Assembly: GCA_943842625.1 (NCBI GenBank)
Contig: CALTCK010000008.1
Coordinates: 1-64,000, forward strand
Origin: an uncultured Flavobacteriaceae bacterium
GTDB taxonomy: Bacteria; Bacteroidota; Bacteroidia; Flavobacteriales; Flavobacteriaceae
Direction of reading: 5' to 3'
DNA: 64,000 nt
The notes under the pieces were generated by a model. That model was given only the letters and a program-made list of their open reading frames with translations, was not told the origin of the DNA and ran no database searches. Of the stretch, positions 36,350-57,931 are shown piece by piece; position 1 is the stretch's first letter, and each line of letters starts with the position of its first letter. The translations under genes were made by a program, and so were the position numbers.

Positions 36350-36375
36350 TTAAGATGGATTTCTTTAACTAAAAA

Positions 36376-38127: not shown

Positions 38128-38140
38128 GATACTTAATTTA

Positions 38141-38148
38141 TATTTTTG
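38141..38148 (+). promoter_or_regulatory. Putative promoter: -7 box TATTTTTG with TTTG at -33
   Basis: The best-formed promoter in the window: TTTG at 38117-38120, a 20-base spacer, then TATTTTTG matching TAnnTTTG, 20 bases ahead of the DUF6341 start. The TTTG lies inside the first codons of the divergent DUF6427 gene. Confidence 0.6.
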
Positions 38149-38168
38149 CAATCATAAATGATAAAGAT

Positions 38169-41140: not shown

Positions 41141-42130
41141 TTATTTTCTAATATGTTTAGAAAAGTCCTTGTGTTCGCTTTTCATTAATTCTTTAGAAGT
41201 AAGACTTTTAAAATATTTAAAAGTCTTTTTCATCCCTTCACTTCTTGATATTTTTGGTTCCCAATTTAATATTTCTTTTGCTTTTGTTATATCAGGCTGT
41301 CTTTGAAGGGGATCATCGGTTGGTAGTGGTTTAAAAATAATTTTTTGCTTAGTTCCTGTTAGCTTAATAATTTCTTTAGCGAAATCTAAAATAGATATTT
41401 CATTAGGATTTCCTATATTAACTGGATAAACGTAGCTACTTTTAAGGAGTTTATAAAAACCCTCTATTTCGTCCTCTACGTAGCAAAATGATCTTGTTTG
41501 CGAACCATCTCCAAAAACTGTTAAATCTTCTCCTCTGAGAGCTTGACCCATAAATGCTGGTATAACTCTCCCATCATTTAACCTCATTCTTGGGCCATAG
41601 GTATTGAAGATTCTAGCAATGCGAACATCAACCCCGTGAAAGCGGTGATATGCCATAGTTATTGACTCTTGAAATCTTTTTGCTTCATCATAAACACCTC
41701 TTGGACCAATGGTATTAACATTACCATAGTATTCTTCAGTTTGTGGATGCACTAAAGGGTCGCCATACACTTCAGAAGTTGAAGCAATCATTATTCTTGC
41801 ATTTTTTGCCTTGGCTAAACCCAATAAATTGTGGGTCCCCAAAGAACCTACCTTTAATGTTTGAATAGGTATTTTAAGATAATCTATTGGACTTGCTGGC
41901 GATGCGAAATGAAGAATATAGTCTAACTCACCAGGAACATTTACAAATTTTGAAACATCATGGTGATAAAACTCAAAGTTTTTATGCTTAAATAAGTGTT
42001 CAATATTTTTTATATCTCCTGTAATTAGATTATCCATTGCGATAACAAAATCACCTTCCTTGATAAATCTATCACATAGATGAGATCCCAAAAATCCTGC
42101 AGCACCAGTTATTAAAACTCTTTTTTTCAT
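41141..42130 (-). CDS. uxs: UDP-glucuronate decarboxylase (UDP-xylose synthase)
   Basis: A short-chain dehydrogenase of 329 residues that turns UDP-glucuronate into UDP-xylose with tightly bound NAD+. The [14 protein letters not shown] nucleotide motif is at 8-21, the catalytic YxxxK as YDEAK, and family-specific stretches include [14 protein letters not shown] and [13 protein letters not shown]. It directly follows the UDP-glucose dehydrogenase gene, which makes its substrate, so the polymer should contain xylose or a sugar derived from it. Confidence 0.92.
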
Positions 42131-42140
42131 ATATTTTAGT

Positions 42141-43442
42141 TTATATTCTCCCTATTGAGTGATATAAAAACCCCTCTTTTTTAATCTCCTCGGTTTCATA
42201 TAAGTTTCTACCATCAAAAATTATATTCTGATTTAAAAGTTTCTTTACCTTGTCAAAATCTGGTGTTCTAAAAACACTCCACTCAGTACAAATAACAAGA
42301 GCATCAGCATCTTCTAAAGCATCATACATAGATTCCGAGTAATTTAGTTTTTCCCCAAATTTTTTCTCAATATTTGGCATAGCTTCAGGATCATAAACCG
42401 ATAATAATGCGCCTTTATCTAATAATTTATTCATTAAATAAATTGCTGGGGCCTCTCTTACATCATCTGTTTCAGGTTTGAAAGCTAATCCCCATATTGC
42501 TATTTTTTTGTTTAATAAATTACCTTTAAAATATTTTTCAATTTTAGGATATAAAATTGTTTTTTGTTTTTCATTAACTTCAATAACAGAATCAAGAATT
42601 TTAAAATTATATAATACATCTTTTCCTGCTTTTTGTAAAGCCTTTACATCTTTTGGAAAACAAGAACCACCATATCCTATTCCTGGAAATAAAAATCGAT
42701 TTCCTATTCTTGAATCAGTACCAATACCTACTCTTATCTTATCTACATCAGCACCGACTCTCTCGCAATAATTAGCAATTTCATTCATAAAAGTAATTTT
42801 TGTTGCTAAAAAAGCATTCGCTGCATACTTGGTTAATTCTGCTGATTTTTCATCCATAATGATTATTGGATTTCCTGATCGAACAAATGGATTATATAGT
42901 TTCTTCATTAATTCTGTAGCTTTTTCACTACGAGATCCAATCACAATTCTCTCAGGTTTAAGAAAGTCATCAACTGCAAATCCTTCTCTTAAAAACTCAG
43001 GGTTAGAAACCACATCAAAGTTACACTTTGCATTTTTTGAAATTGCTTTTTGAACTTTCTCAGCTGTGCCGACTGGTACTGTACTTTTATCTACAATAAC
43101 TTTATAGTCTTTAATTTTTTTTCCTATTTGATCTGCAACTCCTAAAACATATGACAAATCTGCAGAGCCATCTTCATCTTCAGGAGTAGGAAGTGCAAGA
43201 AAAATAATTTCTCCAAAGCTTAACCCTTCATCTAAAGAACTTGTAAAGTTTAGTCTTCCTGCCTTTATATTTCTTTCGAATAATAAATCAAGATGCGGTT
43301 CATAAATAGGGACAATCCCAGATTTCATATTATTTACTTTATCTTGATCAATATCTACACATACAACTTCATTTCCTGTTTCCGCTAGACAAGTCCCAGT
43401 TACTAAACCTACATACCCTGTACCAATTACTGCTATTTTCAA
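42141..43442 (-). CDS. ugd: UDP-glucose 6-dehydrogenase
   Basis: Oxidises UDP-glucose twice to UDP-glucuronate. 433 residues, with the N-terminal [18 protein letters not shown] motif, catalytic cysteine in [10 protein letters not shown] (about residue 260) and a C-terminal UDP-binding domain. The start is a TTG just upstream of KIAVIGTG. The product feeds the adjacent decarboxylase, and may also enter the polymer as glucuronate. Confidence 0.95.
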
Positions 43443-43459
43443 TTTTCTATTAATTTAAA

Positions 43460-44584
43460 TTAGTTTATATATTTTCTATAAATCCTTTCGATGTTAAGAA
43501 TATTATTCTCTATATTATAGTTAGATTTAAAAGATTCGAAAGCATTATGCTCAAATACTTTTCTCTTTTCATCATTATTATAAAGTGTAAAAATACGATT
43601 TGCCATAGTCTTTATATCATTTTCTTCAACAACATATCCATTTATTTCGTTTTTTACTAAATCTCTATTGCCATCAGTATTTGTAACAACACAGGCTTTT
43701 TTTAAGGCCAAAGACTCTATAATTGAGTATGGCAATCCTTCATATCTAGCCGTAGAGATATAAAATTTACTTTTCTTAATAATTTTAAAAATTTCACCTC
43801 GATACATCCAAGGCACTAACGTGATGTTTTGTTCAAGAGTGTATTTGTTTATTAATTTCTCAATATTTTTTTTATTTGGACTATACTCACCAACACCTAG
43901 TATTACAAGATGAATTTTTGGTATTACTTTTTTTACCTCTCTAATAACTTCAACCATCATTTCAATATTTTTTTGAAATGATGGTCTCCCAACACTACAA
44001 ATAAAATCAGAGGGGAGGCTAATGGAGATTTGATCATTGTCTAACTCGATAGGATTAATACTGTTATTAAATAAATTTGTATTCTTTCTTTTGTATCCAA
44101 CATCATTTATCCCCCTATTTAATTCAGACGGAGATGAGGCTACTAAGATTGAATTTATATTTTTGAAAAATTTTTCAATTACTAAAAAAATTTTTCTTTT
44201 TAATCCTTTTGGACTGCTTAAATAGGAATAAGCTTGTGGAGTGTGCAATACTTTTGTGTTAAAAAAAATAGAAGCAACTCTTCCAATAATACCCCCTTTA
44301 GCACTGTGTGCATGAATAATATCTGGGTTTTCAGCTTTTAATATTTTTATAGTATTATAAATTGCTTTAAAGTCATTTAGAGGTGAAATTTCACGCTGTA
44401 TAGAAAGTTTATAGTCTATTAATTTTCGATGATCTTTATTAACAAAGTTTACTTTAGTATCATTTTGACCATGAACTATAATATGTTCAAATTGATTTGG
44501 ATTACAATTCTCTAATATTAATCTCAAGGAAACATCAACTCCACCAACAGAATTTAGAATATGGGCTATTTTAATTTTTTTCAT
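43460..44584 (-). CDS. Glycosyltransferase family 4 protein
   Basis: A GT-B retaining transferase of 374 residues. N-terminal HSAKGGIIGRVAS region, and a C-terminal donor site with GRPSFQKNIEMMVEV and the EX7E-type stretch EGLPYSIIESLALKKACV. It adds one sugar of the repeat unit at the cytosolic face. Overlaps the upstream Wzy-type gene by four bases (ATGA). Confidence 0.9.
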   Translation of the reverse strand: MKKIKIAHILNSVGGVDVSLRLILENCNPNQFEHIIVHGQNDTKVNFVNKDHRKLIDYKLSIQREISPLNDFKAIYNTIKILKAENPDIIHAHSAKGGIIGRVASIFFNTKVLHTPQAYSYLSSPKGLKRKIFLVIEKFFKNINSILVASSPSELNRGINDVGYKRKNTNLFNNSINPIELDNDQISISLPSDFICSVGRPSFQKNIEMMVEVIREVKKVIPKIHLVILGVGEYSPNKKNIEKLINKYTLEQNITLVPWMYRGEIFKIIKKSKFYISTARYEGLPYSIIESLALKKACVVTNTDGNRDLVKNEINGYVVEENDIKTMANRIFTLYNNDEKRKVFEHNAFESFKSNYNIENNILNIERIYRKYIN

Positions 44585-45801
44585 TGTTTTGATAATTTCT
44601 CTAAATTTTTTGATTTTTCTTCAAACATTATTAAAATTAAAATCAGCGCAAATATATAACCTCCTAATTGCCTGTGAAAAAAACTTTCTATAAAAGTAAA
44701 TAACAAAAGAGAGATAAATAATGCCATTTTGTAATAAGAATATTTACTTTGAAAAAACAGTAAACTATAAAGTATCAAAAACAATATTACCGCAATTAAG
44801 CCACTCGATAAATAAAAATCTAAAAATTGGTTGTGGGGGTTAAATTGTTTTTTAATAAAGTATTCTCTTTTTTTAGGGTCTTTTATAACTTCTCCATAAC
44901 AATCCGTTAATTTCTCTTGTGCTCTGTAAAATCCAATACCTTTAAATAAATTAAAATCACTTTTTGTTATTAAATTATTACACTCCCAAATAACAACTCT
45001 TGGCTCCCACTTCTTTACAAGCTCAATATAAGTTAGATTTTTTTCAGTATTATTGGTAAATAAGAAACGTTCTTGTAAATTATTATTTAAATAAAACGAA
45101 ATCATTGTTACTCCTATAATTCCAATAGAAAAAAAGAAATAAGTTTTTCTTTTTTTTGTATAAAAAATTTTTATTGAATATAAGAGAAACAACAATATAA
45201 TAGCAACTCTTGAAGAAATGAGTAGCACAAAAATTACATTAATAATAATATTGGTAAAATACCATTTATTCGTGGCATTAAAATTTTTATCCATTAATCC
45301 TAGAGAAGCAATAATACTTATAATACATAAAGTTCCTAAGTATAATCTATCTATAATTAATACCTCATTTATTATTGAACCTGTAGCGAACTTGAATTCT
45401 TCGTTTGATAGGTAGAAAAAATAAAGGTTCCAGAGAGAGATTAATATCCCTATAAAAACAGAAACTATAATGGTTTTTTTTAGCTTATTTATATTTTCTA
45501 TAGGTATATAAAGTACAATTAATAAAAATGCTGAGATTACCTTTTGTATAATTGTAATATCATTTAAATAATCCTGGAACAATAAACTATTAGTTGATAT
45601 GTAAAAAATGAGTATACCAAATATGTATATATTTTTAGATTTTAATTTTAGAAAGTCTTTTTTAGAAACAACAAAAGGAAAAAAAGTGAGTAAGGCAATT
45701 AATACAATATTAGGAATTGCAGTAGCATACTTATCTAAAGGCAATACAAAAACAAAAAACAAAAACAAATACGGATATATACTTTTTAAAATTTCCTTCA
45801 T
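44581..45801 (-). CDS. O-antigen polymerase/ligase-type membrane protein (first copy)
   Basis: A protein of 406 residues with about 11 membrane helices and a large periplasmic loop (about 235-320) that holds GIGFYRAQEKLTDCYG and the NPHNQFLDFYLSSG motif, typical of the Wzy/WaaL superfamily. It either polymerises repeat units or ligates the polymer to its anchor. A second member lies at 47898-49310, so the two may share these jobs. Four-base gap to the next gene upstream. Confidence 0.85.
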   Translation of the reverse strand: MKEILKSIYPYLFLFFVFVLPLDKYATAIPNIVLIALLTFFPFVVSKKDFLKLKSKNIYIFGILIFYISTNSLLFQDYLNDITIIQKVISAFLLIVLYIPIENINKLKKTIIVSVFIGILISLWNLYFFYLSNEEFKFATGSIINEVLIIDRLYLGTLCIISIIASLGLMDKNFNATNKWYFTNIIINVIFVLLISSRVAIILLFLLYSIKIFYTKKRKTYFFFSIGIIGVTMISFYLNNNLQERFLFTNNTEKNLTYIELVKKWEPRVVIWECNNLITKSDFNLFKGIGFYRAQEKLTDCYGEVIKDPKKREYFIKKQFNPHNQFLDFYLSSGLIAVILFLILYSLLFFQSKYSYYKMALFISLLLFTFIESFFHRQLGGYIFALILILIMFEEKSKNLEKLSKQ

Positions 45802-45804
45802 TTG

Positions 45805-46602
45805 TTACTTTTTTAATAGTTGTTTAAACAGGGTTGTAATTCTTCTTGGAAGCAACAATAATATATAACCTCTAATTAACCCATAAATTGGATAGAATCC
45901 AAAATAAAAATGTTCTAAAACAATCTTTATTCTATTTTTTACTTGCAATTTTCTTTTTGTGGTAGAAATAGAATTCGGATCAACAATATAATCCATCAAT
46001 AACTCTGGATAATTTTCGCATTTAAAATGCTTTACGGCATTAAAAAAAAATGCATAATCTTGGGATGCGTGTCTGTATTTATATGGATAATATCCTGTTT
46101 TTTTAAGTATCTCGGCGTAAAAAACTACCGTAGGATTACAAAACATGCTATTTAAATACATTTTCTTCTTAATTATCGAATATGCTGTTGGTAACTTTAA
46201 ATTATGCAAAAAATTACCTTTTTCATCAATAAAACGTGCCCACGTTCCTAAAACTTTTACTTTTGGATTGTCACTTAGGTATTTTAATTGTTTTTTATAT
46301 TTATTCTCGTAACATAAGTCTCCACAATCAAGCCTACCAATTAAGAGGTAATTTAACTCTTCAATTTTTTTAAGCCCTTTATTTGCTGCAACACCTACTC
46401 CAGAGTTTTTGTTTAAATATTCAAAAAATATTTTTCCATTAGTATAAACAGATTTTATATAATTTTCATCAAACTTAATCGTACTTCCATCGTCAACAAT
46501 TATAAGGTCAACACTAAAAGGTTCTTTGATAGACAGTATAGAATCTTCTAATCCCTTTGGATTATTATAATGTGCAATCAATATTATTAAGTCACTTTTC
46601 AT
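45805..46602 (-). CDS. Glycosyltransferase family 2 protein
   Basis: A GT-A inverting transferase of 265 residues with the VDLIIVDDGST motif, a GRLDCGD variant of the DxD metal site and the conserved acceptor region ASQDYAFF. It ends in a hydrophobic, probably membrane-associated segment (about 228-262). Adds one sugar of the repeat unit. Confidence 0.9.
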   Translation of the reverse strand: MKSDLIILIAHYNNPKGLEDSILSIKEPFSVDLIIVDDGSTIKFDENYIKSVYTNGKIFFEYLNKNSGVGVAANKGLKKIEELNYLLIGRLDCGDLCYENKYKKQLKYLSDNPKVKVLGTWARFIDEKGNFLHNLKLPTAYSIIKKKMYLNSMFCNPTVVFYAEILKKTGYYPYKYRHASQDYAFFFNAVKHFKCENYPELLMDYIVDPNSISTTKRKLQVKNRIKIVLEHFYFGFYPIYGLIRGYILLLLPRRITTLFKQLLKK

Positions 46603-46609
46603 AAGGTTG

Positions 46610-47911
46610 TTAAGAAATAAATGTTTTTATTTTATCTTTCTTATACGAATAAAGTATCGCAAATGCATTCCAAAATAATATGCTAAAAGCCGTTGCAAAT
46701 GCTGCGCCCATCATACCAAAAACTGGGATACAAAACCAATTTAAAGTTGCATTGACAATCAACCCCATAAATAAAAACTGATTTAGTTTGTTTTGTTTTC
46801 CTGTCATATTCATATAAATCGCTATTGGTCCACTTAATGATCTGAAAAATTGCCCTAATAGTAATATCCATAGTGCTTTTTTTGCCTCTATAAAATTCTC
46901 GCCGAATAAACTCAATATAAATTCAGAAAAAATAAATAGAAATAAAATAGCAGGGATGCTAAACAAAATTATTAATCGAGAACTTTTCTTTACAATTGTT
47001 TTTAATGATACAAAATCATCATTAGAGTAGAATTCAGCAATTTTAGGCCCTGCAATGATATTTACAGACAATAAAACTAGTGATGTTATGGTTGCAATCT
47101 TTACAGCAGAGGCATAATAAGCTACTGTTTCAAAATCTGAAAATTTTCCTAATAGAATTATATCAACGCTTTGCATCAAGAAATAAGATATGGAACTTAG
47201 CGCCATTGGGAATGATCTTAAAAAGATATCTTTATAAGAGTAAGGTTTTTTTATATAGTCATTGTTACAGTTCTTAAATACCTTGTGAACTCTATAGGAA
47301 CTAGAGATGGCTAGTATAAAAAAACTAAATAGAAACGCTTCAGTTAACCAATAAGTATGATCAGTCAAAAAGAGAATAATTGCTATTAGTAAGAAAGAAA
47401 CATGCCGGTAAATATTTCGATACAATTCTGAGAAAAGAGGTTTTTGTAGAGCTCTTAATGTATCAATATTTAATAGTGTAACCGTAAAGGCAATAATTGA
47501 TAGCGTTAGTTTTAATATTAATTGTGATGTGCCTGGCTTATTAAAAAATAAATTAATTGAGGAATTTGGAACAATTAAAAATAACAAGACTATTACAGTG
47601 GATGAAGCAAAAATCATCATCATCATTTTTTTATAGACTCTTTTTAATTCACCTAACTTATTTCTAGCCTTTAAAACACCTGAATAAAATATAATAGCCT
47701 GATCGGTACCAAGCAAACAAAGTCCTCCTAAGATGAGTAATAACGACCTTGTAAAGTCATATTTACCAACTTCTTCCGTTGGAAAATTATTTGTTAAAAA
47801 TAAAGTCAATGAAAAAAATAAAATAACCCCACCAACTCTAAGAAAAAGAACCTTAAGGCTTTTGCTTACAAATCTATCTTTTAAAAATAATATGAGTTTA
47901 TTTTTTATCAA
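46610..47911 (-). CDS. Wzx-type flippase
   Basis: A polysaccharide flippase of 433 residues with about 12-14 membrane helices. It turns lipid-linked repeat units to the periplasmic side for polymerisation. The annotated start is a TTG and overlaps the end of the upstream ligase gene by 14 bases. Weakly similar in layout to the flippase at 24.2-25.6 kb but a different gene in a different operon. Confidence 0.87.
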   Translation of the reverse strand: MIKNKLILFLKDRFVSKSLKVLFLRVGGVILFFSLTLFLTNNFPTEEVGKYDFTRSLLLILGGLCLLGTDQAIIFYSGVLKARNKLGELKRVYKKMMMMIFASSTVIVLLFLIVPNSSINLFFNKPGTSQLILKLTLSIIAFTVTLLNIDTLRALQKPLFSELYRNIYRHVSFLLIAIILFLTDHTYWLTEAFLFSFFILAISSSYRVHKVFKNCNNDYIKKPYSYKDIFLRSFPMALSSISYFLMQSVDIILLGKFSDFETVAYYASAVKIATITSLVLLSVNIIAGPKIAEFYSNDDFVSLKTIVKKSSRLIILFSIPAILFLFIFSEFILSLFGENFIEAKKALWILLLGQFFRSLSGPIAIYMNMTGKQNKLNQFLFMGLIVNATLNWFCIPVFGMMGAAFATAFSILFWNAFAILYSYKKDKIKTFIS

Positions 47912-49310
47912 TTTTAAATTTTATATTTCTGGTTAAAATTAATAATAGAGCGAAATTAATCCAAAATCCGAAAACTCTTATGGTATCCATTTTAAACCAA
48001 TTCATTATAAAACCAATCATTGATATAAGTAAAACCATAGCAAAGATTGAATCTTGATTTTTTAATTTAAAAAGTCTAAAACAGGTGTACAAAATATACA
48101 AAATCCAATTAGTAAATAAAACAAATCCAACGATTCCAGTTTCTGCCAAAATTCTTATAAATAAATTGTATCCAGGAGGAAAATTTGGATGTTCCGGATT
48201 TAGATATTTAATTTTAAACTCCCAATTATTATAGGTAGACCAAGGAGGAAGATTTTTAATCATTTCGTAAGTTTGTTGGCCATAACCTACCCCAGAAACA
48301 GGATTATCTAAAAAAACTTGAAATAATGCATATTGTATTCCGAATCTAGATTTATTTGAAACAGCGTGGTTATTGTCGTTTATTTTGAATGAAGTAATTT
48401 TTTCTTTTAAATAATTAACAATTTCAGGGCCTTTTATTATTCCAATTATTAGAGTTATAAAGGCAAAACCTGTTGCCAATCTTAATAATAACTGATGGTT
48501 TTTCTTATTTTTATATAATAATAGTAGAAATACTAAAACTTGGGCTCCAATAATTACTAAACCAGCTCTTGACCCAGAAAATAAAGCTAAAATCAATATC
48601 ATTAATGACGGAATAAACCTCTTTACTCCTTTTTCAGTAATAATGTAGCTAAACATCCATCCAGAAATAGTTAGTAGGTATGTTGCTAGTGCCGGAGGCT
48701 CATAAGTTACAGAGGAAATTCTTTCTCCATTTGGATCAATATATACATTTGTAAAAGGGAAATAATCAAATAAAAGCAAAGTGCTTCTTAAAGCATTAAT
48801 ATTAAATTTAACTATTAATATTTCAAAAAAGCCATAGGTAAAAACCACCAACAAAGAAGCTAAAAACACCTTTCTAATTTTATTAAATATCTCACTGTTA
48901 GTATACCTGCTCATTACATTATAATAAGATACTAATAGAATTACAGATGACAAAATCAAAACAGCGTATTGCCTTATAAATCTATTAACTCCAGAGGTAT
49001 ACTTAAAATTATAATGGATTATATTATGAGTATTTAGTAATGTCGAAATAAAAAACCACAACAGTATAATCAACAATAATGAAAAGAGTGGATTTTTAAA
49101 AGGGATTCTAATTTTTTGAGAAAAGAAAACAGCTATTAAAAGAAGAAAAAATACTATAATAAAAAAGAAAAAACTAGCTTCTTTTTTGAACTCTCCTAAA
49201 AATGATAACCCTTCAAAAGAACTAAACGGTATAAAAAAAACGCCTAAAAAAAAAAGCAAAGCAATTACCTTTTCTAGTGTAAACTTATTATAGAAAGAAG
49301 AGGTTTTCAA
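47898..49310 (-). CDS. O-antigen ligase family protein (second copy)
   Basis: A membrane protein of 470 residues with about 12 helices and the Wzy_C/ligase pattern: SGSRAGLVIIGAQV in a helix, a periplasmic loop with SGVGYGQQTYEMI and the NPEHPNFPPGYNLFIRILAETG stretch (key residues His and Gly). TTG start. It lies 24 bases after the Wzz-like gene. The presence of a second Wzy/ligase-type protein four genes on suggests one polymerises and one ligates. Confidence 0.87.
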   Translation of the reverse strand: MKTSSFYNKFTLEKVIALLFFLGVFFIPFSSFEGLSFLGEFKKEASFFFFIIVFFLLLIAVFFSQKIRIPFKNPLFSLLLIILLWFFISTLLNTHNIIHYNFKYTSGVNRFIRQYAVLILSSVILLVSYYNVMSRYTNSEIFNKIRKVFLASLLVVFTYGFFEILIVKFNINALRSTLLLFDYFPFTNVYIDPNGERISSVTYEPPALATYLLTISGWMFSYIITEKGVKRFIPSLMILILALFSGSRAGLVIIGAQVLVFLLLLYKNKKNHQLLLRLATGFAFITLIIGIIKGPEIVNYLKEKITSFKINDNNHAVSNKSRFGIQYALFQVFLDNPVSGVGYGQQTYEMIKNLPPWSTYNNWEFKIKYLNPEHPNFPPGYNLFIRILAETGIVGFVLFTNWILYILYTCFRLFKLKNQDSIFAMVLLISMIGFIMNWFKMDTIRVFGFWINFALLLILTRNIKFKIDKK

Positions 49311-49334
49311 AGCTATCTTAGGATTTTCTTAATT

Positions 49335-50315
49335 TTATAATTCAGAATTTTTACTATCAGCTAATTTTTTAACTTTCTTGTATTGATGTTTTAAATAAGA
49401 GTACATTAAAAAAGCTACTATAAAATAAAGCGGTATAGTATTCTGATCTAAAGGCAATAATTTATCCTTATCATGCAGTGAAGGATTGTTCATAACAGTA
49501 ACTATATTATCATACTTAACAATCTCTGTTCTTATTCTTTCTCTAAGTTTAAGAGCTCCTGATTTTTTCTCCATTAATAAACCCATATCCATAATGCCAC
49601 TTCCTGTAGATATATAAATATCTTCAGGTTTAGAATTAACTGAAGACTTCTCAGAAATTGAGCTCATAACGTTGTTAATACCTTCAATAGTTATATTAAG
49701 CTCTTTAATTTGATCTTTAGTATCCTCAATAACTACAGCTTTTATCTCATTAAATTTTGAATTGCTATTCAAGTAATTTATCAAATTTTGAATAACTTCA
49801 TCATTAGCATCACTAGTGGTACTTAAAAATATCTTATGATATTTATAATCTGTAAAAAAAACTTCTGATGTCAAGAGTTCATCCTCAAAGTCTGCTTTTT
49901 CTAATAAAGGTTCAATAGCCCGATAATTATACATTGTTTTTTCAAGGAGTTCAATAATATTAACGATAGGCTTTATTTCTATCTTCGTAATTAATCCCTC
50001 AGGATTAAATCCTATTTGGTCCAAATAATCAGAGTCATCTAACTTATAACTTAATAAATTCAAGGCACTGTAAACATAGCTAGTGCTTTTAAAATTCGTT
50101 TGAATAATGATTGTTGTTATTTTTCCTGACTTATTATATTTTTCATAAAGGTAACCTGAGGCAATACCTAGAACTAGAATTATTCCTATTACCCACCAAT
50201 TCTTAATTAAAAACTGAATACCATAATATAGACGTATTAACAAGTTGTTAAAACTATTTTTAATTTTACTAAATATTAATCCTAAGTCTATTTCATCTGC
50301 ATTGGTTTGTGACAT
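49335..50315 (-). CDS. Wzz-like chain-length/export protein
   Basis: A protein of 326 residues with one membrane helix near the N-terminus (about 36-54, WVIGIILVLGIASGYLYEKY), a periplasmic part with coiled-coil sequence, and a second helix near the C-terminus (about 296-312). This is the Wzz topology, without the cytosolic tyrosine kinase domain of Wzc. It should set polymer length. It has its own -7 box and a 141-base upstream gap, so it probably begins a separate transcript. Confidence 0.7.
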   Translation of the reverse strand: MSQTNADEIDLGLIFSKIKNSFNNLLIRLYYGIQFLIKNWWVIGIILVLGIASGYLYEKYNKSGKITTIIIQTNFKSTSYVYSALNLLSYKLDDSDYLDQIGFNPEGLITKIEIKPIVNIIELLEKTMYNYRAIEPLLEKADFEDELLTSEVFFTDYKYHKIFLSTTSDANDEVIQNLINYLNSNSKFNEIKAVVIEDTKDQIKELNITIEGINNVMSSISEKSSVNSKPEDIYISTGSGIMDMGLLMEKKSGALKLRERIRTEIVKYDNIVTVMNNPSLHDKDKLLPLDQNTIPLYFIVAFLMYSYLKHQYKKVKKLADSKNSEL

Positions 50316-50377
50316 AATTAATGCTTTTTAGTTGTTAGTGATTGTGTCTATTAAAATTGTTATTAAACTACTTTCTG

Positions 50378-50385
50378 CAAAAATA
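50378..50385 (-). promoter_or_regulatory. Putative -7 promoter box of the Wzz-like gene (TATTTTTG)
   Basis: Matches TAnnTTTG on the minus strand, about 62 bases ahead of the start at 50315, in the 141-base gap that divides the locus. The CGCAACCAATT repeat (50422-50432) lies about 37 bases further upstream. No good -33 element. Confidence 0.45.
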
Positions 50386-50456
50386 TAACTTTTACACCAT
50401 AATTAAGATAAAATATAGTTGAATTGGTTGCGTTACCATTCTATCTGATTATAATT

Positions 50457-52265
50457 TTAAAGAGCAATAAAAACACTGTTATTAATCTCTGATTTTGATT
50501 CCCAGTTAAGAATTGCTGAATTAGGGTTTGCAATTCCAATGATTACTTTAAAATGATTTGTTTTTGGTTTCACTTTTAAAGAACACTGGTACCATCCCTC
50601 TGATAATTTTTTTATACTTGCATGACCATTATTAAAGTCATCTGTATTTTCAATTCCTTTGACATTACCGTTTAAAACATCAAAAACAGCATCAATTCTA
50701 CTTGGATATTCACCCTGAATTCGTATTGCAAATAAATGACTGGTTTTTGAAGCCTTTACAATAAAACTTGCACTATAATCTTCAATAAAATCAGTATTTA
50801 CATATTTTGTAATACCATAAGAAATATAAGAAGTGTCTATTCTTTTGAGGTTAAAAATAGTATCTCCCTTATAAGTTTTAGTTAAAGGCAACAAATCTAG
50901 ATTTGAAAGTTTCCATTTAGAATAATTACTTGGCTTTATTTTGATAGACTCATTAATTATAGTACTAGGTGTTGCATATAATGATTTTAATTTTTCTGTT
51001 TCTTTTCTTATAATCTCTTGATTCTTGGCTAATATATTCTTACTTATATTTAGATTTTTTGAATCAAATTCTTTTTTTAATAGAATGTTAAAATAATTTG
51101 TTTCTTTTTGATTACTTCTTATGATATTATTTAAATAACCTTTTTTTGATACTTTTTCTAATGCCTTAATTAATTCCTGAAAATATAGGGTATCTCTTTT
51201 TTTGTTAGCAAAAAGAAAATGATGGTATTTATCAATTTCTTGTCCAGAGTTACCATCAAATGATATGGGCTCTAATTTTGAAGTTATTGGGTTGTAATAA
51301 AACCTAAGATTAATAATGTAGCCGCCATGGAAGGCTCCGAATAAATTAGACAGTGCATTATGCATTGCTAATTGTTTAGTATTAAACACTTGACTTATAC
51401 TATAATTATTTTTTCTAAATTCTTCTAAAATATTTTTACTAAAATCAAAATAATTGTATAATAATGAGTCTTCCAGTACCTTTGATTCAGAAAAAACTCT
51501 TATAGGATATTTCCATATTCCTTCTTTTTCTGATTTAAATTTATCCCATCTTAAACCAGATTTTTTGCCTACAGCAATTCTTTTCTTTATGTCACTCCAC
51601 CAGTTTTCTTCTGAGAATTTAAGTATAACACTTTCTTTTCGTCCATTATTTTCTATTAATCGTTTATCAAAAGTTTCTTCAATGGCATAAATACCTAGAT
51701 TCTGACTAATGTAGCCGGATTTATCTTCTTTTTTAATAATCATTGCTCCTTCAACAAAACCATAACGCAATCCTATTAAGCCTTCTTTTTTGTTTGTTTT
51801 CTGATAAACCCATTCATTAATAAATCCTCTTGTGATTGGATGATGTATAGAGAATTTTTTCATCCCCTGTATAGTTTTATCTCCCTTTAATTTTATTCTA
51901 AAAGACCATTTATCCCCTATTAGATGATCTATCCAGTCACCTTTTAGACGAATATCTGCTTTATACTTTTTGCCATTATATCGTAAAGTTGCTGACACAT
52001 ATTTCTTCTCTTTTGCACTAATAACACCTATACTTAGTGCTCTGTCTCTATATTTTTTTAATTTGTTGTAATTTTTTTCAGATAAGTTGATTTCAATAAA
52101 ATTCAAAGTTGTTTTTTGTGATACTGAAAAATATTCTTTCTCATCTTTATCAATTTTTGTTGTTTCATATACGGGAGGATTCCCATAAAATATTAAAATG
52201 AAAACCATTAAGATTAAGCTAGATATCAGTATGTAACTGATTGTGTTTGATGATTTAACTTTCAT
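50457..52265 (-). CDS. CotH kinase family protein
   Basis: A protein of 602 residues with an N-terminal signal/anchor helix (about 10-28) and a CotH-type atypical protein kinase domain (about 50-430). The family's metal-binding aspartate is D337 in PISFDGNSG, and RLKGDWIDH and WSFRIKLKGD are the CotH strand motifs. A C-terminal beta domain (about 455-600) looks like a lectin/concanavalin-type fold. Bacillus CotH phosphorylates spore-coat proteins; this organism should not sporulate, so here it probably phosphorylates a secreted target. The upstream DUF4956 and VTC genes form a recurring partner set. It abuts DUF4956 with no gap. Confidence 0.87.
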   Translation of the reverse strand: MKVKSSNTISYILISSLILMVFILIFYGNPPVYETTKIDKDEKEYFSVSQKTTLNFIEINLSEKNYNKLKKYRDRALSIGVISAKEKKYVSATLRYNGKKYKADIRLKGDWIDHLIGDKWSFRIKLKGDKTIQGMKKFSIHHPITRGFINEWVYQKTNKKEGLIGLRYGFVEGAMIIKKEDKSGYISQNLGIYAIEETFDKRLIENNGRKESVILKFSEENWWSDIKKRIAVGKKSGLRWDKFKSEKEGIWKYPIRVFSESKVLEDSLLYNYFDFSKNILEEFRKNNYSISQVFNTKQLAMHNALSNLFGAFHGGYIINLRFYYNPITSKLEPISFDGNSGQEIDKYHHFLFANKKRDTLYFQELIKALEKVSKKGYLNNIIRSNQKETNYFNILLKKEFDSKNLNISKNILAKNQEIIRKETEKLKSLYATPSTIINESIKIKPSNYSKWKLSNLDLLPLTKTYKGDTIFNLKRIDTSYISYGITKYVNTDFIEDYSASFIVKASKTSHLFAIRIQGEYPSRIDAVFDVLNGNVKGIENTDDFNNGHASIKKLSEGWYQCSLKVKPKTNHFKVIIGIANPNSAILNWESKSEINNSVFIAL

Positions 52266-52958
52266 TTAGTAAGCTTCTATAAAACTAAATTGAATGCTCC
52301 CAATCTTTTTCAATTCAGTTTTAGCTTCTAGAATGTTTTGTAAGCTATTAAACTCAACACTGAAGGAAAGTTCTGTTGTCGAGTTTACCTCGTCTAAGCG
52401 ACGCAAATCTACTCTTGAGCAATATTTTTTCAAAACATCTATAATCTCTTTTTCGTTTAATTTTGAATTGGAAGTGTTCGAAACCATCACTATTAAGTTT
52501 TGCAAAACTTCCTGTTTTTCCGAATTTATATTTTGAATTATTATATAAATAATTATAATTACTACTCCAACCAAAGTCAAGAGACGTTGATTAGCTCCCA
52601 TACCAAGTCCAATCGCTATCGCTATAAAGAAATAAACTAATTCTTCAGGTTCTTTTATTGCGGTTCTGAACCTTACAATAGATAATGCTCCAACCAAACC
52701 TAACGATAAAGCGAGTGATGATTTTACTATTGTAATTACGATCATTACTGTTATAGCCATTAAAACAAAAGTTTGTTTTAATTTCTTTCGATTGGATAGA
52801 GAGCTTCCGTATTTTGTATATATAAGGCCCAGAATATATGCAAGAATTATTGTAATAAAAATATTTATTAAGAATTCTGTTGGGGAAGTGTCACCGATTG
52901 AAAATTGATTGGCTAATTGATTTAAAAAGGTCTTAGAGTTGCTCTGAAGTGTTATCAT
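52266..52958 (-). CDS. DUF4956 domain-containing membrane protein
   Basis: A protein of 230 residues with about four membrane helices (within about 25-145, including LSLGLVGALSIVRFRTAIKE, the family hallmark, and AIAIGLGMGANQ) and a cytosolic C-terminal domain. The function is unknown. DUF4956 genes repeatedly lie beside VTC polyphosphate polymerases and CotH kinases, as here: the CotH gene follows at once and the VTC gene ends 10 bases upstream. Confidence 0.9.
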   Translation of the reverse strand: MITLQSNSKTFLNQLANQFSIGDTSPTEFLINIFITIILAYILGLIYTKYGSSLSNRKKLKQTFVLMAITVMIVITIVKSSLALSLGLVGALSIVRFRTAIKEPEELVYFFIAIAIGLGMGANQRLLTLVGVVIIIIYIIIQNINSEKQEVLQNLIVMVSNTSNSKLNEKEIIDVLKKYCSRVDLRRLDEVNSTTELSFSVEFNSLQNILEAKTELKKIGSIQFSFIEAY

Positions 52959-52968
52959 GATTATTTTA

Positions 52969-53706
52969 TTATTGTGGAAATTGCTTTATGGTATTTACGC
53001 CATTTACATATTTTGAATTTTTATTAATTCTAAAGGGGAATTGTGTAGAGATTTGTTGAGCGCATTTATCGTCTTCAATATTATATTTTAATTCAACAAT
53101 TTTATTTTCATCTTTTGTTGGTGCAATATTAAAATTATTAAACTTTTTATCAATTCCGTAATATACTAAATTAAAATCTACTGTAATTCTAAATTTATTG
53201 TTGGCTGATAAATAATATTTTCTAGAATAAGAGTTAAGTAAAGAAGGGGTTACTAATCTTGTAGACTCTAAAATAGGTAATGGTATATCAGACTCTTTAA
53301 AAATCTTTTGAATTCTAACCGATGTAAAGTTATTATCTAAAGTGAAGGGGGTTAGTTGATATGACCATTTGTCTCCTACTAATCCTTTTTTAATCTTAAT
53401 TTCTAATACCGGATTTTTAATAACTCCAAAGGTCTCTCCATACCAGCGTATTCTGATTTTCTTTCTTTCAGAAACGCCTAATACATTATCAAAATAGTCA
53501 TTATAACCAGCGCTATCAAAATAAATATTATTAACTTGTCTTTGATGGTAAACTTCTCTAAATAGATATTTATTTTTCTTTACTGTTGCTTCGATTCTAC
53601 TTGTTTTATAATTATCTGGAACTGTAAATTTTCGTTCATACCTATAATTATGTTTAGGGTTTATATAATGTATAATACTTTCTTCTTTTAAAGGTTTATA
53701 AGTCAT
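52969..53706 (-). CDS. VTC-domain polyphosphate polymerase
   Basis: A protein of 245 residues made of one VTC tunnel domain. The basic and acidic residues lining the tunnel are visible: YERKFTV at 23-29, the VNNIYFDS strand, RKKIRIRWYG, LEIKIKKG and IVELKYN. By analogy with yeast Vtc4 it should make inorganic polyphosphate from ATP, or bind it. It has no membrane segment, so it may pair with DUF4956 as the membrane part. Cytosolic. Confidence 0.88.
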   Translation of the reverse strand: MTYKPLKEESIIHYINPKHNYRYERKFTVPDNYKTSRIEATVKKNKYLFREVYHQRQVNNIYFDSAGYNDYFDNVLGVSERKKIRIRWYGETFGVIKNPVLEIKIKKGLVGDKWSYQLTPFTLDNNFTSVRIQKIFKESDIPLPILESTRLVTPSLLNSYSRKYYLSANNKFRITVDFNLVYYGIDKKFNNFNIAPTKDENKIVELKYNIEDDKCAQQISTQFPFRINKNSKYVNGVNTIKQFPQ

Positions 53707-53727
53707 ATTATTTTTAAATATCTCTTT

Positions 53728-56238
53728 TTATTTGCTACTTTTCCCAAATTCTACACCGTACATTTTGCTTTTTACATTTTTTAAAGTTGTGGCCTCTTTT
53801 CCATTAAAATGAAGAGATGATTTATTTTCTATTAGATGAATGGTTTCAACACTATCTAACTTTACTTTTGTAAGTTTTATATGTGAAGGACCAAACTCTG
53901 GCTTTTTTTTAAAGGCAGTAAATGCAAGTTTATTGTTCCTAATAGTTAGGTTTTTTCCTTCCACAATAGATAAGTCTTTTCCGGCAAGACCAATCTCGCT
54001 ATTGTTTATTGTTACATTATTTATAGTCATTTTACTATTTTCTCCTGCACTTAAGCCTTTATCGCCTGCTTTGTTTATAGTTACGTTTGTTATTTTGATA
54101 TCTGAACCTGAAACATCTATAGCGTCATTTCCTAAGTTTATAAAATTACTGTCTTTTACAATACCCTCAACAAAGTCCCCATCAAAAGCATCTGACTTAG
54201 TGTTTTTCAGAGTACAATAACTCATAAAAAAATTTGTTCGTACAATATTTAAAGCATCTTCAGATCTATTATTTGATATCGATACATATTCTAATTTCAC
54301 AGGAGATTCGTAAAAGGTTATGGCACCTGTTACTGTCCAATTACCATGAGACGGGTTTGTTAAGTATTTGATCGATACATATTTTAAATACGAATTTCTT
54401 TTATCTGCTAAAACCAATATTCCTTGACCTTTTTTATCTGAGGAATAAATTTCTACAGGTGATTTTTTGGTGCCAATGAATTTTAAAGGCGAATTCGAAA
54501 TAATTTTTCCTCCGTCAAGAATATTGATTTTTGTTCCAGATTTTGCTTTTAAAATATATCCTGGCGGGATAATTAATGGCGTGTCAATAATTATAGAGTC
54601 TAAAAAAGTAATCTCTTTTTTCTTTTGATCTATAACTAAGTCTTTATTTAGTTTAATAGTTGGTGAGGTCCTAAATAAGTCATCTTTTTTAACTTCAGAA
54701 GCAATGTATGGTGCTATTGATACTCTATGAATTGAATCAAGACCAATAAATGAAAAAACAACTTTTAAATCGTAAATATCCTTTGATAATTTAAACCCTG
54801 TAGTTTTTGATTTCTTATGGACAAATAAATTTTCAAAACTTCTTGGAAGAGGTATATCTATAATTTTCTTCTGCCCCATTAATAGTTCTTGAAAAGGACT
54901 CAAAGTTGATATTCGCTTTGATTTCTTATAATTAAGACCTTTTATTTCTATTGGAAAATCAGAAACGTTGTGAAGGGATAGTTTCAAGTTTCCGTCTGTT
55001 AATGAAATAAATTCAGCAGAAATTATTGAATAAAAAAATAAACTGTTTATTAATAAATTTTGATTTACCAACAGAGTATTGTAATTATAAATTTTATTGG
55101 GATAATATGAATTTATAAGCGCCAGTTCTTTTTTGTAGGCATCTTTGTTAGATATAGCTAAAAAGTCTTTACTCACACTGTCAATAGCTCTAATGTAACC
55201 CTTTAAAAAAGAAGAGGTTTTTAATTTTGGTGCTTTTACAATTTTAGCCATTTCTCCAAGACAATTTGAATCCACATAAAAAGGCTCTAATAATCTTGTT
55301 TTTTTATTCAAAACAAAATGCAATATTTCGTTACACCCACTAGTAAAAATATTTTTTATTATAAAGTAATCGATTAATTTAGTGATATCAAAAACGGAAT
55401 CTATATTGGTTTTTTTAAGCAGGTTAATTTTCAATTGTTCTGCTTTAGGTCCTAAAAAATTAAGACTAGAAATTAGAGAGTCATTCCCGTTATTCATGGC
55501 CTTCCAAAATAAATCTGAATCACTCACGGTAGCAAGGTTAACATTGTTTTGCTTGATATAAAATTCTATACTTTGTGTCGTTTGAAAAAGGCTGTCGTTT
55601 TTTAAACTATAAGAATATGGTAAATGTTTTATATTTTTTGCATCAAGACTTTTTTTATAGAAATACATATAAGGGTTTGGAATAGAAAACTTTGAATAGT
55701 TATTGTTTTTGAAAATTAAACTTTCCACCTCTTCGTTAGTCCGGGTTTTGATGGTGGTATTCCAATCGTTTCTTGCTGTTCTGTATTTGTCTATACTAAC
55801 TTCAATTTCTATTACATTTACTTGAGGCAATTCTTTAATAAACACACCGTAGTCTATATTATTATAACTATATAAAACCGCTTTATTAGTATTAGTAGTT
55901 TCTAGTTTTTTTAAATCCTTTGGCTGTTCGCTGGTAGTGTAAAGTAATCGGATATTAAAATCAGTTTCTTGCTCGTCTATAGTGGGAAATTCCTTAAATA
56001 TTAATAGCTCCTTGGTAAGATCATCCTCATAAATAGTACCAAAATAGCTATTATTAATTTTTTTAGCATGTTTAAGTATGCTACTATATTTCTGGGGCAT
56101 TTCAACTAAAAAGGGATTGTTTTCTGAAGGGTTCTTTTCTAAAAAGTTGCTCTTATATAACAAAAAAAATATGCTTATTATTACAAAGAAAAATGCGATT
56201 AAAAAAAAAATTCGATTATTAGCTTTTAAAACCATCAT
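53728..56238 (-). CDS. Beta-helix protein with a CotH-like N-terminal region
   Basis: A protein of 836 residues with an N-terminal membrane helix (about 10-27). A middle region (about 30-530) resembles CotH proteins: D323 in EPFYVDSNCLG lines up with D337 of the neighbouring CotH, and IDYFIIKNIFTSGCNEILHF matches its surroundings. A right-handed parallel beta-helix follows (about 570-830) with repeated turns such as VTINKAGDKGLSAGENSKMT and NNVTINNSEIGLAGKD. Beta-helices of this kind bind or cleave polysaccharide or serve as scaffolds. It is encoded with CotH, DUF4956 and VTC. Whether the kinase-like part is active cannot be told from sequence. Confidence 0.65.
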   Translation of the reverse strand: MMVLKANNRIFFLIAFFFVIISIFFLLYKSNFLEKNPSENNPFLVEMPQKYSSILKHAKKINNSYFGTIYEDDLTKELLIFKEFPTIDEQETDFNIRLLYTTSEQPKDLKKLETTNTNKAVLYSYNNIDYGVFIKELPQVNVIEIEVSIDKYRTARNDWNTTIKTRTNEEVESLIFKNNNYSKFSIPNPYMYFYKKSLDAKNIKHLPYSYSLKNDSLFQTTQSIEFYIKQNNVNLATVSDSDLFWKAMNNGNDSLISSLNFLGPKAEQLKINLLKKTNIDSVFDITKLIDYFIIKNIFTSGCNEILHFVLNKKTRLLEPFYVDSNCLGEMAKIVKAPKLKTSSFLKGYIRAIDSVSKDFLAISNKDAYKKELALINSYYPNKIYNYNTLLVNQNLLINSLFFYSIISAEFISLTDGNLKLSLHNVSDFPIEIKGLNYKKSKRISTLSPFQELLMGQKKIIDIPLPRSFENLFVHKKSKTTGFKLSKDIYDLKVVFSFIGLDSIHRVSIAPYIASEVKKDDLFRTSPTIKLNKDLVIDQKKKEITFLDSIIIDTPLIIPPGYILKAKSGTKINILDGGKIISNSPLKFIGTKKSPVEIYSSDKKGQGILVLADKRNSYLKYVSIKYLTNPSHGNWTVTGAITFYESPVKLEYVSISNNRSEDALNIVRTNFFMSYCTLKNTKSDAFDGDFVEGIVKDSNFINLGNDAIDVSGSDIKITNVTINKAGDKGLSAGENSKMTINNVTINNSEIGLAGKDLSIVEGKNLTIRNNKLAFTAFKKKPEFGPSHIKLTKVKLDSVETIHLIENKSSLHFNGKEATTLKNVKSKMYGVEFGKSSK

Positions 56239-56243
56239 TCGCC

Positions 56244-57089
56244 TTAATGCTTTAATTTACCTAAAGAATTAATATTATCTCCGTTTAGATGAACTAAATT
56301 TAGTTTCACGGATTTATCTTCGTAAATATCCACAATTACTATATTATCTCTAACACCTCCACCCATTCCAGTAGCTATATAAGTAATATTATTTTCTTTA
56401 AAATATGCATACTCTATTATGTGATCTTTCTTTTTGTATTCTTTCGAAAAAGCACCTACATCTCCTGCGAATAAATATACTTCTTTTCCGATAGACTCTA
56501 GAATAGGCTGTATTGTAGACCAATAATTTGGCGTTTCTGCTCTGTTTTGCTGCCAATTTGGTTTTGGTTCTGAAAATTTTTCTTTAGACCACCATATCAA
56601 TTGATGCATGAATATAAAGATATGGTCAGCATTTTGGCCCTCATTTTGCAAAGTTTCTTTTAAAAAAACAAGTTGATCTCCTGAAATATTCCATTGGTCA
56701 ATATTTGGATCTAATACGATAAATAAATTATTGTCCTGAACAAACTTTTGATATGATTTTCCAAACATATCTTCAAAATTGTCCAAAGGCCCATCGTGAT
56801 TTCCCCTTGCTATATAATAAGGCATAGTAAGATCTTCCAGCTCTTTTAAAACATTAGGCCAACTACTGGGATACCTAACAACATCTCCAAGTAAAACACC
56901 AAAAGATAAATTTTTACTATTTAAAAAAGAAAACTTTTCTTTAAATGGAGGGTAAAGCTCCTTTTTTCCTGTTGGAGCAGGTTTTCCATATGCATGTCCA
57001 GCAACAAAAAAAGATTGTTGTATTTTTTTTTCTGACTCAGTACAACCTAAAAAAAGCATGACTGAAAATATTAATAAAATATATTTCAT
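56244..57089 (-). CDS. Metallophosphoesterase lipoprotein
   Basis: A calcineurin-like phosphoesterase of 281 residues. I moved the start to the ATG at 57089, which gives a proper lipoprotein signal (MKYILLIFSVMLFLGC) and overlaps the rfbD stop as TAATG; the longer frame starting at 57122 would put 11 charged residues before it. The metal motifs are AGHAYG, GDVVRYP, GNHDG, MHQ and AGDVGAF. The first motif lacks the usual Asp-x-His, so metal binding may be unusual. It may dephosphorylate targets of the CotH kinase or trim phosphate from the polymer; that is inference from location. Confidence 0.82.
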   Translation of the reverse strand: MKYILLIFSVMLFLGCTESEKKIQQSFFVAGHAYGKPAPTGKKELYPPFKEKFSFLNSKNLSFGVLLGDVVRYPSSWPNVLKELEDLTMPYYIARGNHDGPLDNFEDMFGKSYQKFVQDNNLFIVLDPNIDQWNISGDQLVFLKETLQNEGQNADHIFIFMHQLIWWSKEKFSEPKPNWQQNRAETPNYWSTIQPILESIGKEVYLFAGDVGAFSKEYKKKDHIIEYAYFKENNITYIATGMGGGVRDNIVIVDIYEDKSVKLNLVHLNGDNINSLGKLKH

Positions 57090-57931
57090 TAGGGAATTAT
57101 TTTTTTTAAACTTTTTTCCCAAGAGGGTAATAAAAAACCAAATACTTCAGTAAATTTTTCTGTGTTTAATACACTAAACACTGGTCTTTGTGCAAATGTA
57201 CGGTAATAGTCCGTTTTTACAAGATTTGTTTGTGTTAATTGGCCCGTTTGCGTTAATATCTCTTTTGCAAAGTCATACCAAGTTGCTTCTCCCTCATTAC
57301 TATAATTATAAATACCGTACTTCTTAGAATCAGATGCTATGATATTAAGAATAACCTCTGCTAAATCGTTAGCATTAGTTGGAGTTCCTGTTTGTTCTGT
57401 TGTAACAGTTATTGATTTTCCTTCATTTACAAATCTTAAAATTGTATTGTAAAAATTTTGGCCGTATTGGGAGTAAAGCCATGAGGTTCTAATAATATAA
57501 TGTTTCTTCAAAATTTCTTGTAACGCCTTTTCTCCTTCCAATTTAGATGCTCCATAAACATTAACTGGATTCGTTGGATCTTTTTCAGTGTAGGGGGCTC
57601 TTTTTTTTCCATCAAATACATAATCTGTTGATATTTGAATCAATGTGGTATTGTTTTTCTTACACTGTTTTGCTAAGTTTTTTACACCATCTCCATTAAC
57701 TAAAAAAGCCTTTTCCTTTTCACTTTCTGCTTTTTCAACATTAGTATATGCTGCCGTGTTAACGCAATAATCAAATTCTTCTTTATCAAATAATACCCGG
57801 ATTGCTTCTTTATTTACAATGTCTAATTCTTTTCGGCCAAGAAATAGAAAATTATATTCTGGATAATGATTCGATATATCTCTTATGCACTTTCCTAGTT
57901 GTCCGTTTGCGCCTGTAATAACTATTTTCAT
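57089..57931 (-). CDS. rfbD: dTDP-4-dehydrorhamnose reductase
   Basis: The last step to dTDP-L-rhamnose, with NAD(P)H. 280 residues, with GANGQLGK at 7-14, the STDYVFDG region and catalytic YGASK. Overlaps rfbC by four bases (ATGA). Confidence 0.96.
   Translation of the reverse strand: MKIVITGANGQLGKCIRDISNHYPEYNFLFLGRKELDIVNKEAIRVLFDKEEFDYCVNTAAYTNVEKAESEKEKAFLVNGDGVKNLAKQCKKNNTTLIQISTDYVFDGKKRAPYTEKDPTNPVNVYGASKLEGEKALQEILKKHYIIRTSWLYSQYGQNFYNTILRFVNEGKSITVTTEQTGTPTNANDLAEVILNIIASDSKKYGIYNYSNEGEATWYDFAKEILTQTGQLTQTNLVKTDYYRTFAQRPVFSVLNTEKFTEVFGFLLPSWEKSLKKIIP

Follow-up and report, generated by a model that had tools for sequence, protein, structure and literature searches.

A conserved VTC–DUF4956–CotH-type gene module of Flavobacteriaceae as a candidate polyphosphate-dependent envelope system

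In Gram-positive bacteria, the genes for a CotH protein, a poly-phosphate polymerase and a DUF4956 protein have been described as accessory genes of pel clusters (accessible text of PMC7112168), and in Streptococcus intermedius the deletion of SIR_1592 or of the CotH gene SIR_1594 altered the amount of Pel and reduced aggregation (accessible text of PMC12345266). The authors of the latter study state there that their analyses fail to locate the trio arrangement beyond the Pel locus. The NELoc-2 locus of Clostridium perfringens is listed, in the available sections of its description, as a VTC gene, a gene for a protein named "tubulin/FtsZ", a CotH gene and a chitin-synthase-like transferase gene (PMC2879425). 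The present work concerns a block of five genes at positions 50457–57089 of a 64,000-nucleotide stretch of DNA (the window; contig CALTCK010000008.1, positions 1 to 64,000) from an uncultured Flavobacteriaceae bacterium, which encodes a calcineurin-like phosphoesterase lipoprotein, a beta-helix protein, a VTC-domain protein, a DUF4956 membrane protein and a CotH-like protein, called CotHa here. The first-pass annotation of this DNA held that such a system appears undescribed, which goes too far, the CotH, polyphosphate-polymerase and DUF4956 trio having been published as a Pel accessory set (PMC7112168, PMC12345266, as far as the accessible text of both extends). Compared by family with the streptococcal proteins, the loci described below are counter-examples, at family level, to a Pel-only arrangement. 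In what follows, and by an equation that is our own, SIR_1592 is taken to be the DUF4956 gene of PMC7112168.

Together the five genes constitute a single module rather than a set of random neighbours. Two surveys were carried out: the first covered 148 related genomes, including the window's own and the near-identical G011 (genomes and loci are denoted by G and L numbers), and the second the best 80 of 586 DUF4956 matches obtained by a DUF4956 alignment scan, so that its frequencies lean to the type found in the window. In the first survey 32 genomes yielded a total of 34 VTC matches and 40 genomes a total of 46 DUF4956 matches, and every one of the 34 VTC matches had DUF4956 on the same contig, with a largest gap of 3,358 bp (genome-level Fisher p 2.7e-25, uncorrected for kinship). 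In the second, VTC lay no more than 5 kb from DUF4956 in 65 of the 80 loci and anywhere in the locus in 66; where at least 5 kb of sequence was available on each side of DUF4956 (37 loci), VTC was present in 35, a CotH of either kind (canonical, or the H-type represented by CotHa) in 34, and both in 32. According to the record labels, VTC with a nearby H-type CotH occurs in Bacteroidota, Planctomycetota, Pseudomonadota, Calditrichota, Krumholzibacteriota, Omnitrophota, Margulisbacteria, Bacillota and Chloroflexota, as well as in Woesearchaeota provided that the bins are correct, and the module is present in isolates such as Dokdonia pacifica, Aquimarina megaterium and Maribacter algarum. The idea of a chance neighbourhood without shared function was rejected on the 34/34 pairing and the recurring gene order; exchange of the block as a unit, described below, speaks against it too, no point was found in its favour, and it retains next to no credence. 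The earlier proposal that the genes belong together is thus borne out by their co-occurrence in relatives.

As to function, the reading that we consider first, with a probability of roughly 0.35, is that of a single envelope system in which VTC synthesises polyphosphate, DUF4956 gives it passage and CotHa transfers phosphate to a glycan or protein of the cell surface. The VTC protein would polymerise polyphosphate from ATP at the cytosolic face of the membrane; DUF4956 would anchor VTC and pass the chain to the periplasm by way of its invariant basic residues, by analogy with the yeast VTC complex, which delivers polyphosphate into the vacuole. CotHa, facing the periplasm, would use polyphosphate to phosphorylate a surface glycan or a glycoprotein or other protein, the beta-helix may hold or trim the glycan or glycoprotein target of CotHa, and the phosphoesterase, together with a pyrophosphatase lipoprotein in some relatives, would clean up, recycle or reverse the products. 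ATP is not expected in the periplasm, and for this reason polyphosphate is put forward as the CotHa donor. The gene content suggests, then, that such bacteria may use polyphosphate to phosphorylate surface molecules.

The VTC-domain (triphosphate tunnel) protein (52969–53706, minus strand, 245 residues) is the predicted polyphosphate polymerase and matches Pfam with 81 bits (cut-off 23). Its alignment holds 25 invariant columns (51 rows), no transmembrane segment is predicted in any of 85 rows, and its profile matches yeast Vtc4 (3g3q) at E 1.6e-10. Residues K26, R85, R87, E102, K104, K113, R162 and R173, all of them fully or almost fully conserved, align with Vtc4 K200, R264, R266, E279, K281, K294, R361 and R373, while the four C-terminal ones, E205, K207, S231 and K232, align with E426, K428, S457 and K458 in a second stretch scoring 2.1 bits (Vtc4 numbers counted from the 8i6v alignment). 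These Vtc4 tunnel residues are presumably the catalytic ones, and their retention agrees with the assignment made in the first-pass annotation. K458 is named as catalytic in the accessible text of PMC4641920. Strand 1 reads R22-x-E24-x-K26, with Arg in place of the first Glu of the ExExK motif and E24 invariant (51/51); it is therefore intermediate between the RxTxK of Vtc4, whose Thr198 is Glu here, and the ExExK of tripolyphosphatases, which carry glutamates in this strand (accessible text of PMC4641920).

The DUF4956 protein (52266–52958, minus strand, 230 residues; Pfam 76.6 bits, cut-off 30.6) is polytopic, with three predicted transmembrane segments, so that the membrane protein announced among the five is indeed one. 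A 58-row alignment reveals a conserved SLALSLGLVGALSIVRFRTAIKEPEEL stretch and four invariant residues, K79, R96, R98 and K102, located within or close to the membrane. The C-terminus is weakly ACT-like (profile match to 2ko1, E 0.37), and no other PDB match was obtained. In three Anaerolineae loci (L133, L149, L161) the protein reaches 453–480 residues by an exported-looking N-terminal extension, which places the DUF4956 N-terminus outside; in L149, the one extension that was scanned, PF06439 was found.

CotHa (50457–52265, minus strand, 602 residues) was identified as CotH-like by its predicted structure and by profile–profile comparison. It consists of an N-terminal membrane anchor (residues 8–26), a CotH-fold kinase-like domain (about 56–430) and a jelly-roll-like C-terminal domain (about 450–600). 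Neither CotHa nor the beta-helix protein matches Pfam CotH (PF08757) above its cut-off, the two matches to this model in the window's genome both lying on other contigs, and a CotH-H profile matched no PDB sequence. The AlphaFold model of CotHa (mean predicted local distance difference test, pLDDT, 78.6, with the kinase domain mostly above 90) has as its top Foldseek matches the CotH structures of Bacillus cereus, 5jd9 and 5jda (E 1e-11, probability 1.00, 16% identity, template modelling score, TM-score, to target 0.66–0.68), and hhalign of the CotHa family against 12 canonical CotH sequences gave 94.1% (E 1.3e-7). The hhalign comparison sets His313 against the Asp of the canonical sequences that, in a separate alignment, coincides with the QNFD Asp of B. 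cereus CotH. We equate this Asp with D228 of the B. subtilis protein. In that protein the D228Q change is reported as inactive (accessible text of PMC7821199). The exported CotH kinase of the first-pass annotation consequently stands in part: the predicted fold and the N-terminal anchor support it, and the missing Pfam match and the exchange of the catalytic Asp for His do not. Since that Asp is replaced, kinase activity cannot be assumed.

The new residue is itself conserved. Position 313 is His in 59 of the 63 rows that cover the column (W, E, Q and P in the remainder), and the metal-binding Asp337, at the position of B. subtilis D251, is Asp in 49, Glu in 12 and Asn in 2 of 63 rows. Glu197 is kept in 61/64 rows and Lys119 in 51/64, His114 is invariant (64/64), and Arg106 and Lys108 are found in 56/64 each; these counts omit H-type matches below 60 bits and column-gapped rows, and include the near-identical pairs of rows from the window and G011 and from L082 and L140. 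An N-terminal transmembrane segment is predicted in 61 of 70 H-type rows. By these sequence criteria the H-type family is CotH-folded with an altered yet conserved active site, not a decayed one. One distant relative found with the H-type profile (L139) passes Pfam CotH (35 bits, cut-off 23.8) and lacks the His and the metal Asp.

These residues bear on another explanation, in which VTC would hydrolyse tripolyphosphate or sense chain length and CotHa would be a scaffold of the pseudokinase type, and in which the module would sense extracellular phosphate and control the beta-helix protein. The RxExK motif of strand 1, as judged from the accessible text of PMC4641920, and the change of Asp to His are what such a module might show. 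Yet K207 is basic, as in Vtc4, where tripolyphosphatases have Glu by our reading of that text, the remaining tunnel residues of Vtc4 that were examined are present too, and CotHa retains Glu197, Lys119 and a metal-binding Asp or Glu (61/63), unlike the decayed copy in the beta-helix protein. We regard this explanation as quite unlikely.

The C-terminus of CotHa is shared with the G026 protein (45% identity over CotHa residues 1–592), and in both it is akin to domains of phage baseplates and, weakly, to CBM6. The same jelly-roll (residues 415 up) also matches kinase-less proteins in four other genomes of the same family (L100, L101, L102 and L109), the first three in loci with rml-like genes and the last in one with UGD- and flippase-like genes.

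The beta-helix protein (53728–56238, minus strand, 836 residues) has an N-terminal membrane anchor, a CotH remnant (about 55039–55698) and a right-handed beta-helix (about 53731–54711) that reaches Pfam beta-helix models below cut-off only. Its history can be followed across loci. In 51 of the 80, an H-type CotH and a beta-helix make up one fused protein, of about 1,000 residues in D. pacifica (L160), A. megaterium (L183) and L081–L083, and from this frequency it follows that the two functions probably act on one object. The window, G011, G026 (L080) and M. algarum (L112), which have two separate genes, form one VTC clade (support 97/90); L166 (Bacillota) has two genes as well. After the split CotHa retains the kinase core without a beta-helix, and the partner gene retains the beta-helix. 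A single origin of the CotH type was considered and rejected: H labels are clustered on the VTC tree (0/500 shuffles as low), but 11 changes are needed.

The second CotH-like region, proposed earlier within the beta-helix protein, turned out to be degenerate, and the candidate of a second active kinase was discarded. Of six kinase motifs LEP alone is retained, the other five being altered (RLKGD to RLLYT, KWS to DWN, EExFDK to TQSIEF, HxxxxHN to CNEI and YYNP to VLNK), and the same five are altered in the M. algarum copy. In the beta-helix, which carries an invariant Asp/Asn/Lys/Ser/Glu set, the window retains all 18 residues chosen for their prior conservation; 24/24 rows agree at 16 of them, and 22 and 23 rows agree at the remaining two. 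The loss of the motifs together with the keeping of these residues indicates that the CotH-like region is a dead relic, unlikely to be a kinase, and that strict selection acts on the beta-helix independently, as far as the alignments tell. Foldseek with the beta-helix model (pLDDT 74.6) returned only a broad range of polysaccharide-acting beta-helices (GH87, GH28 and AlgG among them), the best E being 1.6e-5 and the TM-scores low, with no CotH among the 50 matches listed, and the beta-helix profile had no match among PDB sequences.

A more specific form of the polyphosphate proposal can be drawn from these proteins, namely that exported polyphosphate drives a widespread form of envelope phosphorylation, a split VTC synthase-translocase feeding a His-for-Asp CotH phosphotransferase, perhaps through phosphohistidine, that would modify surface glycans presented by the beta-helix. 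We hold it tentatively and think it doubtful; if true, it would resolve the lack of ATP outside the cell.

The phosphoesterase lipoprotein (56244–57089, minus strand, or 57122) was correctly foreseen, with a Metallophos match of 32.9 bits (cut-off 21.5) and the lipobox FLGC. An ATG start at 57089, which overlaps the rmlD stop (TAATG), is likely, and a TTG at 57122 possible. CotHa, the beta-helix protein and the phosphoesterase thus all carry an N-terminal anchor or a lipobox, which would place them outside the cytoplasm, with orientation assumed and topology called from hydropathy and lipobox prediction. Relatives of the phosphoesterase above 100 bits occur in 7 of the 80 loci, and at E ≤ 1e-5 in 6 of the 148 genomes; four of the latter are strong, all of them in genomes with an H-type module, although in G007 not adjacent to it.

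A further phosphate enzyme appears beside the module in relatives. Among 112 sources searched, eight Bacteroidota loci (L080, L081, L112, L143, L158, L160, L175 and L187) have, no more than 3.6 kb from VTC, a gene for an inorganic pyrophosphatase that bears a lipoprotein signal, and a ninth match, in L127, lies at 12 kb. The lipobox was recognised by pattern in six of the eight and by eye in L112 and L175, and the enzymes were assigned by PF00719 by name in L112, L158 and L187 and elsewhere by a profile built from L143, L158 and L187. Such a lipoprotein fits an extracytoplasmic polyphosphate economy; as an obligate partner it was rejected, two of four strong homologues being in genomes without VTC. 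It also bears on the suggestion that the surface product is polyphosphate itself, exported by VTC and DUF4956 and grafted as chains onto a glycan or protein by CotHa, with His313 as phosphate acceptor, to give an anionic coat. The evidence for phosphorylation from polyphosphate would serve this suggestion equally, as would the conserved His at the catalytic site and the baseplate- and CBM6-like C-terminus of CotHa. A pyrophosphatase outside the cell would, though, tend to destroy short products, and we know of no example of polyphosphate grafted as such a coat, which we think rather improbable. The window's genome also contains two tandem PPK2 genes on contig C8 (123883–125401), 60 kb past the window, and gave no PPK1 match; we count these findings on the side of phosphorylation from polyphosphate.

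Among the rivals, the strongest is a regulatory role in polymer synthesis, in which CotH would phosphorylate a component of the polysaccharide machinery from ATP or another donor and tune the amount of polymer, with VTC and DUF4956 sensing or buffering phosphate. A regulatory part for CotH has been suggested in print for the Pel loci of Gram-positive bacteria. When SIR_1594 of S. intermedius was deleted, Pel fell, and when SIR_1592 was deleted it rose, with no change reported for the polyphosphate-polymerase gene SIR_1593 (accessible text of PMC12345266). The ACT-like C-terminus of DUF4956 points weakly the same way. However, CotHa is predicted to lie beyond the cytoplasm, in a compartment that should hold no ATP, the H-type CotH is without the catalytic Asp, pyrophosphatase lipoproteins are left unexplained, and the module exists without PelG and mostly without adjoining glycosyltransferases. 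PelG had no match in the window's genome nor in 30/30 genomes with other loci (30 of the 80 loci, many of them drafts), and of the three matches among the 148 relatives, one of them over the cut-off, none is in a genome with VTC. We consider this rival unlikely, though it deserves attention.

Several observations weigh against phosphorylation from exported polyphosphate. For bacterial VTC/DUF4956 pairs no activity was found in the open literature, and deletion of the polyphosphate-polymerase gene of S. intermedius is given with no change reported (accessible text of PMC12345266). The RxExK strand makes hydrolysis by VTC possible, CotHa could be a non-kinase, its catalytic Asp being replaced, and the putative conduit role of DUF4956 is drawn from basic residues and the analogy with yeast. 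Twelve of the 46 DUF4956 matches, one of them under the Pfam cut-off, have no VTC partner. One such case is in the window's own genome (L092, contig C1, about 119.6–125.6 kb), where a second DUF4956 adjoins a 988-residue canonical CotH without VTC. The four strong pyrophosphatase homologues (above 190 bits) of the 148 genomes are divided between two at VTC modules and two in VTC-less genomes, and the window's genome has no homologue of this type. The missing PPK1 match in that genome, a point in favour, loses weight through a completeness of 84%. Finally, a scan of 143 neighbouring genes (at most one per side and one inside, 120–620 residues, 80 loci, crude longest-reading-frame calls) matched glycosyltransferase models only 3–5 times each and canonical CotH 9 times, in the top 25 of 133 families.

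The same scan bears on the setting of the module. General embedding in polysaccharide loci found no support, glycosyltransferases being scarce among these immediate neighbours; because no single glycosyltransferase model matched more than five of the 143 genes, the module seems to stand by itself and not to be a fixed component of polysaccharide export. Within the window the neighbourhood is as first described. All five open reading frames are present in a row on the minus strand, at the positions first given for them, with intergenic gaps of 0–21 bp, preceded by rmlB-A-C-D for rhamnose synthesis. Downstream, 141 bp past CotHa, lies the gene of a 326-residue protein whose sole match, to Wzz, is sub-threshold (E 0.45); genes for a Wzy_C protein and for a MatE/Wzx-type flippase (Pfam) follow, so that the block does lie between rhamnose synthesis and polymer export genes. 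A promoter and terminator scan stayed at chance level. On its far side the polysaccharide locus includes the gene of a bactofilin and purD (GARS) (window 31636–32115 and 35309–39674), and relatives of purD, of a DUF4254 gene and of a GT9 gene recur next to the G036 module (L083). L092 also holds an HlyD-like protein (under the Pfam cut-off) and an unassigned protein of 424 residues; its DUF4956 and CotH are found again in the same-genus L098, L107 and L108, with the HlyD-like neighbour at least in L107. On a Kordiimonadaceae contig (L147) the module is repeated, with copies on both strands and two DUF4956, three VTC and three beta-helix genes.

The closest copy of the block is that of G011, from the same genus. 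Near-identity extends over 50441–57140, with four mismatches across the five genes (50457–57122), and falls abruptly at both ends, to 78–87% in four 100-bp windows below and 65–80% in five above. From this contrast between block and flanks the five genes appear to have been exchanged as one unit. The locus is otherwise a mosaic with respect to G011: a second near-identical stretch at about 41.1–44.5 kb (41141–44540) covers UDP-sugar and first glycosyltransferase genes, the Wzx/Wzy segment (44541–50440) is about 84–93% identical and the rml genes about 74–84% (500-bp windows). With completeness values of 84% for the window's genome and 69% for G011, a chimeric assembly is a possible alternative source of the block's identity.

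For bacterial VTC and DUF4956 no established role was found in the open literature, and the module ties both to the phosphate supply of secreted kinase-like proteins; the trio of the Gram-positive Pel loci proves far broader in distribution, and a compact, widespread system with named isolates and named residues offers handles for testing how phosphate is supplied outside the cell, where there is no ATP. In the open literature on DUF4956, VTC and CotH, neither the H-type CotH nor the beta-helix fusion nor the pyrophosphatase link was found. With the Gram-positive Pel set, the window shares the same three families side by side and a link to exopolysaccharide, and differs from it in an H-type CotH either fused with a beta-helix protein or separated from it, the phosphoesterase, the Gram-negative host and the lack of a PelG match in the genomes searched. 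With the NELoc-2 locus (available sections of PMC2879425), compared by description only, it shares the presence of VTC, a membrane protein and CotH in the vicinity of a glycosyltransferase. Bacteroidota clusters of the L087 type likewise have VTC, DUF4956 and CotH in a row, but they belong to a separate VTC branch (8 rows, 100/100), their CotH keeps the Asp, and a DUF2490 protein stands in place of the beta-helix; L088 has the same order, its third gene known by position only. The Bacillus CotH kinase (5jd9, 5jda) has the fold and the metal Asp, Glu and Lys positions in common with CotHa, which differs in His for D228, a conserved RLKGD..DH motif, a membrane anchor and a beta-helix or jelly-roll partner. 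The yeast VTC complex (Vtc4, 3g3q, 8i6v), lastly, has a tunnel domain whose basic and acidic residues are those of the window's VTC protein and a partner membrane domain, whereas in the window the tunnel and membrane parts are on separate genes, DUF4956 serves as the membrane part and there is no SPX match.

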